From: Marinobacterium rhizophilum DSM 18822
Lineage (GTDB): Bacteria; Pseudomonadota; Gammaproteobacteria; Pseudomonadales; Balneatricaceae
Direction: 5' to 3'
DNA: 64,000 bases
Assembly: GCF_000378045.1 (NCBI RefSeq)
Contig: NZ_KB899090.1
Coordinates: 186,001 to 250,000, forward strand
The notes beneath the pieces are model-generated. The model was not told the origin of the DNA, searched no databases, and saw only the letters and a program-made list of their open reading frames with translations. Made by a program: the position numbers and the translations under genes. This document shows positions 22,778 through 42,654 of the stretch, one piece after another (the stretch's first letter is position 1; every line of letters starts with the position of its first letter).

Positions 22778-22958
22778 CAGGCTGCTAGCAGCCTGTCGGA
22801 CTTACCACTGATCTACTGCGGAAAAGCCGAATTTAGTCATTTTATGTACTCTTTTTTGTTAAATAGAACCACTATTCGCCTCAAAAGAGCTCAAAAACTG
22901 CCGCAAATCGGTCTTTACCTCGCTACGATCGGCCAAGCCCGACAGGCCGCTAGGCCTG
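22778..22958. repeat. Palindrome-ended dispersed repeat, copy 1
   Basis: A ~181-bp element. At the left is the perfect 18-bp palindrome caggctgctagcagcctg (22778-22795), continuing into TCGGACTT; at the right is a decayed copy of the same palindrome (22943-22958). The inner ends form terminal inverted repeats (cagcctgtcggactt against the complement of aagcccgacagg). Positions 22789-22952 match 42483-42646 with seven differences in 164 bases and no gaps. It has no coding capacity, so it resembles a MITE-like non-autonomous element. Confidence 0.85.
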
Positions 22959-40743: not shown

Positions 40744-41160
40744 ATGCAGATTTCAGAACCCGGCCAGCCCCGTTACGGCGATGGCGATACATCCTACCAG
40801 GCCACCGGCGGCATTGCGGGCATCCGTCGCCTCGTTGATGCCTTTTACGACCAGATGGAATCCCTGCCGGAGGCGGCCGAGATCCGTGCCCTGCACCCGC
40901 GCAATCTCGACGAGTCGCGGGACAAGCTCAGCTGTTTTCTGAGCGGCTGGCTCGGTGGTCCCAAACTGTACCGCGAGAAATATGGCCCGATCAGTATTCC
41001 CGCCGCTCACGCGCACCTGGGTATTGGCAGCCAGGAACGCGATGCCTGGCTATTGTGCATGGAAAAGGCGCTGGATCAGCAATCCTGGCCCGAGGGCTTC
41101 AAACACTATCTGCTGCGTGCTCTGAGCGTACCCGCCGAGCGCTGCCGCACCCGTGACTGA
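40744..41160 (+). CDS. Group II truncated haemoglobin
   Basis: A 138-aa globin of the 2-on-2 TrHbII type. Visible landmarks: GIRRLVDAFYDQMESLPEA (B-helix Tyr in FYDQM), KLSCFLSGWLGGPKLYREKYG, the proximal His in AHAHLGIGSQERDAWLLCM, and a C-terminal helix. Such proteins bind O2 or NO and have been tied to oxidative or nitrosative stress tolerance. The start is ATG 40744, matching the homologous MQISE...RYG opening. The last eight bases overlap the next gene's GTG start, so the membrane protein downstream is translationally coupled. Confidence 0.9.
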   Translation: MQISEPGQPRYGDGDTSYQATGGIAGIRRLVDAFYDQMESLPEAAEIRALHPRNLDESRDKLSCFLSGWLGGPKLYREKYGPISIPAAHAHLGIGSQERDAWLLCMEKALDQQSWPEGFKHYLLRALSVPAERCRTRD

Positions 41161-42505
41161 ACCCGAACTCTGTCGCCGGAACCGCGGAGACCTGACCGGC
41201 TGGACTGGCACTCGGCTGGCCGGCTGGCTCTTGCTCGGTGCGGCCCTGTGCTCGATCCTCGGCGCCCTTGCCGCATTTCCGCCACCCGAGCTTGCGGGCA
41301 CACTGGCCTGGTGTGCCGGCATCCTGCTGTTCCGTCGCCTGGGCGGACTACAGCGCGCACAGGTGCTGCTGATGCTGAGCGTGGGCGGTGCAGGTCTACT
41401 GCTGGCAGCATACCAGGGCGAACTGCTCGTATACGGCGCCCGAGCGCTGGCCAACAGTCAGGTACTGATCGCCATGCTCGTCGCGGTGGGCTTTTTGCGC
41501 CTGGTCGCTTTGCCCGCGACAACCGCAAGCCCAGACCTTCCCCAAGGCCGGGCAGCCCTGTGGAAGACCCTGTTCGGCACCCACCTGTTCGGCGCTGCGA
41601 TCAATTTTTCGGCCCTCACCCTTATTGGCGATCGCCTGCACAGCGCACATCCACTGCAGCCAACCCAGGCCCTGGCGCTGTCCCGCGGCTTTGGACTTGC
41701 TGCCCTCTGGTCGCCTTTTTTTGTCGCCATGGGCATTGCGCTTACGCTGGCACCGGGCGCCAGCCTGCTGCCGCTAAGCTTGGGTGGCCTCGCGGTGGCG
41801 CTCCCTGCCCTGTTGCTGGCCGGATACAGTCTGGGTCGGCGGGACGATAGCCACACCTTTGCCGGCTACCCGCTTCAGTTCGATTCGCTGCGCATACCCC
41901 TGGTACTCGTACTGCTGGTGATGGCCGGACATCAGTTGCTGCCAGGACTCGGCATCCTGAGTCTGATTACAATCTGCGGCCTGACTCTGCCCTGGCTGGT
42001 ACTGGCCGTTAAATCACACCGCCAGGGCCTGCGACGCTACCGCGATCATATCGAGCAGGCAGTGCCCGCAATGCATAGCGAGCTACTGCTTTTTCTGGCT
42101 GCCGGCGTACTGATGGCCGGCATTTCGGCGCTGGTGCATTTTAGTGGCGTCACGCTGTCACTGCAGCACTTTGGCGCGACGCAAGCAGCGGGCCTGGTTG
42201 GACTCAGCGCGCTGGCGTCCATTATCGGCATTCACCCGGTAATCACCGTCAGCAGCCTGGCCGGCATGCTGATGCCCGTGGTAACAGACCCCAACCTCCT
42301 GGGCCTCAGCATTCTGATGAGCTGGTCACTGGGCGTGATTGTCTCGCCCTGCTCCGGCACACACCTCGCCATGCAGGGGCGTTTTAACCTTAATGCCTTT
42401 CGATTTTTTAGCTGGAACTGGCGCTTTGGTCTGGGTCTTTATGGCCTGGACTGCCTGGCGTTATTTGGCTACGAAGCGCTTTCAGCCTGTCGGACTTACC
42501 ACTGA
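41153..42505 (+). CDS. Polytopic membrane protein, ion-transporter-like, 3' end rewritten by a repeat
   Basis: A 450-aa inner-membrane protein with about eleven or twelve hydrophobic segments in two halves, each ending in a re-entrant-looking Ser/Pro-rich stretch (FGTHLFGAAINFSAL; GLSILMSWSLGVIVSPCSGTHLAMQGRF). The arrangement resembles ion-transporter-superfamily carriers, but I do not recognise the family or substrate. It starts at a GTG overlapping the haemoglobin gene. The last codons (ACRTYH) and the stop lie within repeat copy 2 (from 42483), so the native C-terminus has been replaced or extended. Confidence 0.75.
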   Translation: MTEPELCRRNRGDLTGWTGTRLAGWLLLGAALCSILGALAAFPPPELAGTLAWCAGILLFRRLGGLQRAQVLLMLSVGGAGLLLAAYQGELLVYGARALANSQVLIAMLVAVGFLRLVALPATTASPDLPQGRAALWKTLFGTHLFGAAINFSALTLIGDRLHSAHPLQPTQALALSRGFGLAALWSPFFVAMGIALTLAPGASLLPLSLGGLAVALPALLLAGYSLGRRDDSHTFAGYPLQFDSLRIPLVLVLLVMAGHQLLPGLGILSLITICGLTLPWLVLAVKSHRQGLRRYRDHIEQAVPAMHSELLLFLAAGVLMAGISALVHFSGVTLSLQHFGATQAAGLVGLSALASIIGIHPVITVSSLAGMLMPVVTDPNLLGLSILMSWSLGVIVSPCSGTHLAMQGRFNLNAFRFFSWNWRFGLGLYGLDCLALFGYEALSACRTYH

Positions 42506-42654
42506 TCTACTGTGGAAAAGCCGAATTTGGACATTTTACGTACTCTTTTTTGTTAAATAGAACCACTATTCGCCTCAAAAGAGCTCAAAAACTACCGCAA
42601 ATCGGTCTTTCCCTCGCTACGATCGGCCAAGCCCGACAGGCTGCTAGCAGCCTG
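42483..42654. repeat. Palindrome-ended dispersed repeat, copy 2
   Basis: A 172-bp element, 96% identical over 164 bp to 22789-22952. The right end carries the perfect 18-bp palindrome (42637-42654); the left end keeps only its inner half, cagcctg. Inverted ends match 14 of 15 bases. Its left 23 bp are read as the last codons and stop of the upstream membrane-protein gene. Confidence 0.88.

Follow-up and report, generated by a model that had tools for sequence, protein, structure and literature searches.

In this study, we describe a short repeat element of Marinobacterium rhizophilum DSM 18822 which, in our judgement, is probably a MITE mobilised by IS1182-type transposases, and whose body would be a hairpin under selection on one strand, in all likelihood as an RNA. 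Two copies lie in the window (the whole stretch of 64,000 nucleotides that was analysed), where a first, sequence-only reading had proposed either a MITE-like element or a structured RNA. Both proposals turn out to be supported together, the former by the ends, the copies, the CTAG target, the empty sites and the related insertion sequences (ISs), the latter by covariation of the stems and conservation of the loops. Bacterial MITEs are often viewed as passive remnants with little beyond their ends. The body of this element is strongly constrained: its stems turn over without losing their pairing, which is kept mainly on one strand.

The two copies in the window are real, as BLASTN aligns them with 163 of 172 positions identical and one 2-nt gap. 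With boundaries taken from many copies, each spans 169 bp, and the two align without gaps at 160/169 identical positions (154/161 between the CTAG ends). Copy 1, both CTAG ends included, lies at 22785..22953 and copy 2 at 42479..42647, each assigned to the minus strand, the strand of conserved pairing; the left CTAG of copy 2 has decayed to CTTT. The terminal repeats, to which no strand is assigned, occupy 22785..22803 (left) and 22935..22953 (right) in copy 1, and 42479..42497 and 42629..42647 in copy 2, the left one of copy 1 consisting of CTAG plus 15 bp, a sequence that several IS1182-type ISs have unchanged at one of their ends. Between them, positions 1-127 of our model R1 cover a structured core on the minus strand at 22806..22933 and 42500..42627. 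This core holds a conserved apical block (minus strand, 22858..22882 and 42552..42576; GAGGCGAATAG-TGGTT-CTATTTAAC in copy 1) and, in copy 1, two conserved internal-loop blocks that read CCGCAGTAG (22813..22821) and CGTAGCGAG (22919..22927) on the minus strand. An 18-bp palindrome had been placed at opposite ends of the copies, left of copy 1 (22778..22795) and right of copy 2 (42637..42654), neither with a strand. This placement stands, but the palindrome is no separate module: it joins 11 bases of the element end (CTAGCAGCCTG) to a mirroring flank of 7 bases, flank first in copy 1 and element end first in copy 2. Flanks that mirror their own element end at 6-7 of 7 positions were found at 9/273 ends, compared with 1/273 at a control offset, and are with only nine cases a minority feature. 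In some cases, among them L007, L198 and L218, the neighbour is the true end of another element, with one CTAG in common.

A search for further copies, which the sequence-only reading had proposed, returned at least 28 near-full copies and at least 63 matching pieces in the own genome, where 40 of 90 candidates were scored. Every one of the seven genus genomes searched, the six congeners plus the own, has matches, as do 22 of 96 relatives with the own genome counted in. With copy 2 and its flanks as query, three congeners hold at least 41 matching pieces each. Counts of the end motif in the own genome, allowing up to two mismatches, were 90 on one strand and 83 on the other (173 in all), against 15 and 11 (26) for the reversed motif; this control and the copy number rule out a chance repeat. 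Pairs of common ends, picked by hand from lists, delimit size classes of about 58, 169, 183, 230-250 and 432 bp. The smallest are derivatives without the core, four of which lie in fetched loci (L007 2820-2877; L031 1292-1349 and 2466-2523; L046 1490-1547) and consist of one 19-bp end plus about 39 bp of the opposite side, with the CGCAGTAG block exact in 2/4 and changed by one base in 2/4. Since forms without most of the hairpin recur, the hairpin seems dispensable for movement. Longer forms, in which one hairpin arm is broken up or swapped for other sequence, were noted at L319, L045, L194, L029, L030 and L043.

The copies have 19-bp ends in common that are also found on IS1182-type ISs: the element end, CTAGCAGCCTGTCGGACTT, is equal or near-equal to the ends of complete ISs of this type, and for L215, L216, L237, L098, L137, L166 and L204 the match is 19/19 at one end or both. 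Full ISs of 1,538-1,686 bp lie between such ends in a Thiocystis MAG (L098), Thauera sp. 28 (L137), an Acidobacteriaceae MAG (L166) and a viral contig (L204). The L098 protein contains DUF772 and DDE_Tnp_1_6 and, like those of L137 and L204, exceeds the cut-off score of the NCBIfam IS1182 model (NF033551). In congener G003, L215 is a 1,572-bp IS with one perfect end and one mismatch in the other; the G003 transposase shares 71% identity with the L098 enzyme but is decayed, with in-frame stops and a split across two frames. Near-identical ends also occur at L400 in G522. Element and ISs have a stretch of about 19-28 bp per end in common, their interiors being unrelated, and none of the searched ISs carries the core between its ends, the R1 matches in L218 and L237 being adjacent MITEs. 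The CTAGCAGCCTGTCGGACTT end pattern is present in at least 117 stretches of the GTDB genome collection (by record title from Gammaproteobacteria, Betaproteobacteria, Verrucomicrobia and others); when one of its bases is allowed to vary, it also occurs in 14 viral contigs.

Movement had been tentatively attributed to a transposase elsewhere in the genome, with use of the same terminal repeats as a check. Such repeats do bound full ISs elsewhere and a decayed one in G003, but no matching transposase was found in the own genome, where the best match, on contig 43, is only 30% identical. This IS1182-type transposase of the own genome (G000; contig 43, 6088-7287, and right end of contig 14) is a 417-codon open frame that runs into a contig end, the contig stopping within the gene. 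The PF13751 matches in this genome have no corresponding ends inside the fetched loci, and a facing-end search of G001 and G002 gave no autonomous element among the places listed. IS1182 matches (1e-20) were obtained in 19/64 genomes with the element versus 38/210 without it (one-sided p = 0.037), an association so weak that other enzymes, lost transposases or assembly gaps may be involved; 45/64 element-bearing genomes have no match at this threshold. When 30 IS1182-hit loci were scanned for one IS end each, few had element-like ends, most representing other IS1182 subgroups.

A second end type, CTAGGAGGCTGTCCGAGAA, flanks elements with a transposase both in the genus (L218, L219) and in G541; over the matched parts, the L218 and L219 proteins share 36-38% identity with the L098 protein. 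In congeners, this second IS1182-like group was seen at L218 1256-1410 and 1407-3158 and at L219 497-2248, the L218 pair being a MITE and an IS of the group that adjoin with one CTAG in common. The same core occurs with clearly different ends (CTAGAAGCTGTTTCATAACTCT, CTAGAAGCTGCCTGG) at L330 in G070 and on the viral contig L351; such deviant ends suggest further matching transposases. IS1182-type transposases are DDE enzymes, acting on double-stranded ends, and we would expect a member of this family to recognise the double-stranded ends of the element and to move it in trans.

A different route of movement would be that of a REPIN-like element, carried as single-stranded DNA by a RAYT (Y1) transposase, with the IS1182-like ends being incidental. 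REPs carry a GTAG tag, and GTAG stands in the blocks of many copies. REPINs, as described in the available text of one study (PMC3116915), are likewise short, extragenic and non-autonomous, with hairpins that show compensatory changes. According to that text they are associated with RAYT genes, whereas the present element is bounded by DDE-type ends and conserves both its internal and its apical loop; moreover, its CTAG target, together with complete ISs that have the same ends, fits a DDE enzyme. We therefore regard a REPIN-like nature as highly improbable. A GTAG-tagged REP was rejected because the tag next to the hairpin varies, with CGTCGCGAG, CGTCACGAG and CGTAACGAG occurring.

For the target, an exact CTAG was counted at 243/314 ends, some of them from loci that had been fetched with a CTAG-containing pattern. 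Five sites besides the window copies were queried in four congeners, and the empty sites to be expected of a mobile element could be read at 4/7 loci (copy 1, L006, L022 and L023), consistent with a duplicated CTAG target. At the site of copy 1, where the left flank was aligned by eye (15/20), all four congeners are without the element and have a single CTAG; in G001 and G004 this CTAG is followed by 15 bases of the second end type, which leaves G002 and G003 as the plainly empty alleles. The homologue of window position 22950 in G001 and G004 carries a 19-base second-group end, as though one CTAG had served as target on two occasions. Empty alleles read CTTG/CCTG at L006, CTAG/CTAT at L022 (one CTAG in 1/2) and CTG at L023. 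Among the remaining loci, L020 yielded no homologue, the relatives at copy 2 are without the element and have flanks too diverged to read, and L009 was not readable. IS1272 and the other palindrome-targeting IS1182 members resemble this system in transposase family and in a preference for palindromes, but in the available description (PMC5678879) IS1272 swaps out its target stem-loop without duplication, whereas the present element keeps CTAG at both ends. Replacement of an inverted repeat after the manner of IS1272 was rejected, CTAG standing on both sides of copy 1 and singly in relatives.

As for the surroundings of insertions, 43 copies lie outside predicted genes, with a gene end within 30 bp in 25 and a gene start in 8 (longest-ORF calls, raw counts without a chance model), and in 12 copies the TAG within the element's CTAG doubles as the stop codon. 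Element orientation relative to neighbouring genes shows no bias (25 vs 29). Copy 2 (42479) sits at the 3' end of ORF 41153-42505, whose stop falls within the element, while the short end found there in congeners is another one. Sites with a flank stem score of at least 8 amount to 8/91 against an expected 3.5%, and with so slight an excess within hairpins the targeting of terminator hairpins was rejected as a rule. Judged from its sequence features, namely a length of 169 bp, 19-bp ends, the lack of a transposase gene, dispersed copies, a CTAG target and empty sites, the element is a MITE.

Folding of the element as RNA, a check that had been put forward with the first observation, beat shuffled sequence on both strands, with z scores for copy 1 of -5.7 (plus) and -7.2 (minus) and of -11.95 for a Pseudomonas aestuarii copy. 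Covarying helices together with conserved loops, as expected of a structured RNA, were found in three sets of copies (A1, A2 and A3), the structures being derived from sequences within the sets themselves. In A1, which comprises 56 of 108 near-full copies, 90.0% of cells are paired on the copy 1 fold, and 31/56 pairs show double changes in 87 cells, compared with 18.4 after shuffling and 16-31 when the structure is slid; the central stem alone has double changes in 12/15 pairs. A first RNAalifold run on A1 gave 21 pairs only; more were resolved with the fold of L001 and with the broader set A2. In A2, 32 diverse cores aligned on sequence alone, 92.5% of cells are paired and 30/40 pairs are doubly changed (177 cells vs 46.6 shuffled and at most 68 slid), on a structure that was derived from the same alignment and is favoured over slid versions on cells paired. 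A3 consists of the 29 best-scoring further genomes outside the model, with a mean identity of 66%; 96.3% of cells are paired and 35/40 pairs have double changes (224 cells vs 59.9 shuffled and at most 70 slid), pairing and GU counts being inflated here because the alignment was fitted to the model.

While the stems turn over, both loops, internal and apical, remain fixed in sequence in A2 and A3. On the minus strand of A2 the conserved blocks read CGTAGCGAG, RGGCGAATAG-N4-5-CTATTTAACG and YCGCAGTAG, the stems between them showing as many as six pair types, and the apical block recurs with unrelated stems and even with other ends, such as CTAGGAGGCTGTCCGAGAA. The two conserved loops could act as recognition points, for example for a nuclease or an RNA-binding protein.

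The minus strand appears to be the one that matters. Read on this strand, the internal pairs of 108 copies contain 263 GU vs 54 AC cells (sign test over internal pairs 27 vs 9, p = 0.004), while the terminal repeats contain 68 GU vs 66 AC cells. Parsimony events leading from Watson-Crick pairs to GU versus AC number 124:40 internally and 59:47, which is not significant, in the terminal repeats; with the pairs of the plus-strand fold, which has the opposite bias, the internal events are still 97:32. Completion to a Watson-Crick pair was counted 32 times from GU and twice from AC, and folding favours the minus strand over the plus in stability for 31/32 cores of A2 and 29/29 of A3. R1 gives copy 1 a score of 127.6 bits on the minus strand and 29.3 on the plus, and copy 2 scores of 124.3 and 20.3. 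The GU excess is mostly A-to-G at paired sites, with rates of A>G and T>C of 0.079 and 0.021 at paired and of 0.082 and 0.053 at unpaired internal sites; since a slight lean of this kind is also present at the unpaired sites, and the strand asymmetry by columns with three or more copies is weak, part of it may be mutational. The simplest account would be that the element's ends are read as double-stranded DNA and its body as a folded single strand, and the body most likely acts as RNA, as we infer from these patterns. The minus strand would then work in folded form, its RNA arising by read-through or by transcription of its own.

An ordinary fold-back MITE, with arms kept complementary by template switching or conversion and no selection at all, would be a simpler explanation of paired arms. 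Template switching corrects long imperfect palindromes, the element is a near-symmetric dyad, and the weak lean of unpaired sites fits an asymmetry of partly mutational origin. Nevertheless, correction of the arms alone gives no excess of GU over AC of the kind seen internally (124:40, vs 59:47 in the terminal repeats), and it leaves the persistence of unpaired positions within the stem (columns 51/123, unpaired in 56/56 rows of A1) and the fixity of the loop blocks amid stem replacement unaccounted for. We consider this explanation improbable.

More weight, though still at the level of an unlikely alternative, belongs to a hairpin that acts as DNA, in which one strand folds and is bound by protein when single-stranded, on the lagging strand or during a strand-specific step of mobility. 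With selection acting on a mobile element, a role in mobility or replication is natural; G-T pairs are tolerated in single-stranded DNA hairpins too, and neither a promoter at either copy nor a bias of orientation towards genes was found. On the other hand, DDE enzymes use double-stranded ends, the searched ISs have no hairpin inside their ends, and the 58-bp derivatives are also copied without the core. We continue to favour a selected RNA hairpin within an IS1182-mobilised MITE.

The statement that neither copy has coding capacity proved too strong, as a stop-free frame of 55 codons spans the whole element on the plus strand in both (22787-22951 and 42481-42645). That this frame is the conserved feature nonetheless seems very doubtful: it is stop-free in 69/108 copies, but its synonymous fraction is 0.341 vs 0.295 expected, which is little sign of coding selection, and the apical loop in A2 differs in length by one base among lineages, so that the frame shifts. 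In the window, Rfam gave 0 matches at gathering score; at eight element-bearing loci it gave sub-threshold hits only, far below gathering, to microRNA, snoRNA and other unrelated families. A known RNA family was accordingly rejected. Searches for sigma-70 promoter-like and terminator-like sites within or next to the two copies gave none. In the literature covered on IS1182 MITEs, CTAG and palindrome targets, MITE hairpins and structured-RNA surveys, which included few subscription papers, the element is undescribed, and the available text of PMC10969869 and PMC2267715 makes no mention of IS1182.

Several described MITEs invite comparison. The ISMac2 MITEs of Methanosarcina acetivorans, in the available text (PMC3852290), belong to an IS1182-family element and measure 160 and 169 bp, one of them having a 4-bp direct repeat. 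They resemble the present element in size, in having inverted repeats (25-26 bp) and in similarity to the IS at the ends only; they differ in their archaeal host, and a conserved internal structure is without mention in that text, the comparison being one by description. YPAL/RU-2 of Yersinia, again compared by description (available text of PMC2229807), has about 168 bp, a palindromic body, dyad-symmetry targets and a contiguous open frame, but its inverted repeats are internal and its duplications measure 3-26 bp. QMITE1 and QMITE2 of Coxiella are MITEs that yield small RNAs (PMC5896051, available parts); by the ranges shown there, full QMITE2 copies have about 170 bp and some overlap gene 3' ends, whereas the rows shown have direct repeats of 7-9 bp and no CTAG, this too being a comparison by description. 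For the present element, the hairpin could be retained out of self-interest of the element, or because it is beneficial or harmless beside gene 3' ends; both are possible.

The core is widespread. In the window, R1 at E 0.01 finds the two minus-strand copies, weak plus-strand echoes of them and nothing more. At E <=1e-5, with up to 12 candidates scored per genome, it matches 64/274 genomes of the class (the own included) and 54/222 genera, the class being taken as Gammaproteobacteria (GTDB sense) from carriers such as Marinobacterium, Pseudomonas and Neptunomonas; by our count, the positive genomes span 48 bacterial families. Beyond these, 26 of the 117 loci from the GTDB collection match at E <=1e-3, including Extensimonas, Undibacterium, Rhodoferax and a record titled Deltaproteobacteria, and 0/14 viral loci with the end pattern do. 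An origin from phage or E. coli was rejected, no match at E 1e-3 being present in 50,697 phage and 20,395 E. coli records. Going further, one may tentatively picture, with slightly less than even confidence, a payload RNA without an Rfam match that has spread on IS1182-mobilised MITEs through Gammaproteobacteria (GTDB sense) and beyond, its ends being exchanged to follow the transposases and its loops kept by selection. Were the RNA reading true, a large family that Rfam lacks would be added, and whether transposon-borne hairpins can be selected RNAs is directly testable on the many natural variants. The exact apical block occurs in at least 11/390 genomes of the order, compared with none for the reversed control among the matches listed, and one copy, the sole plasmid match, lies on a conjugative Pseudomonas plasmid.
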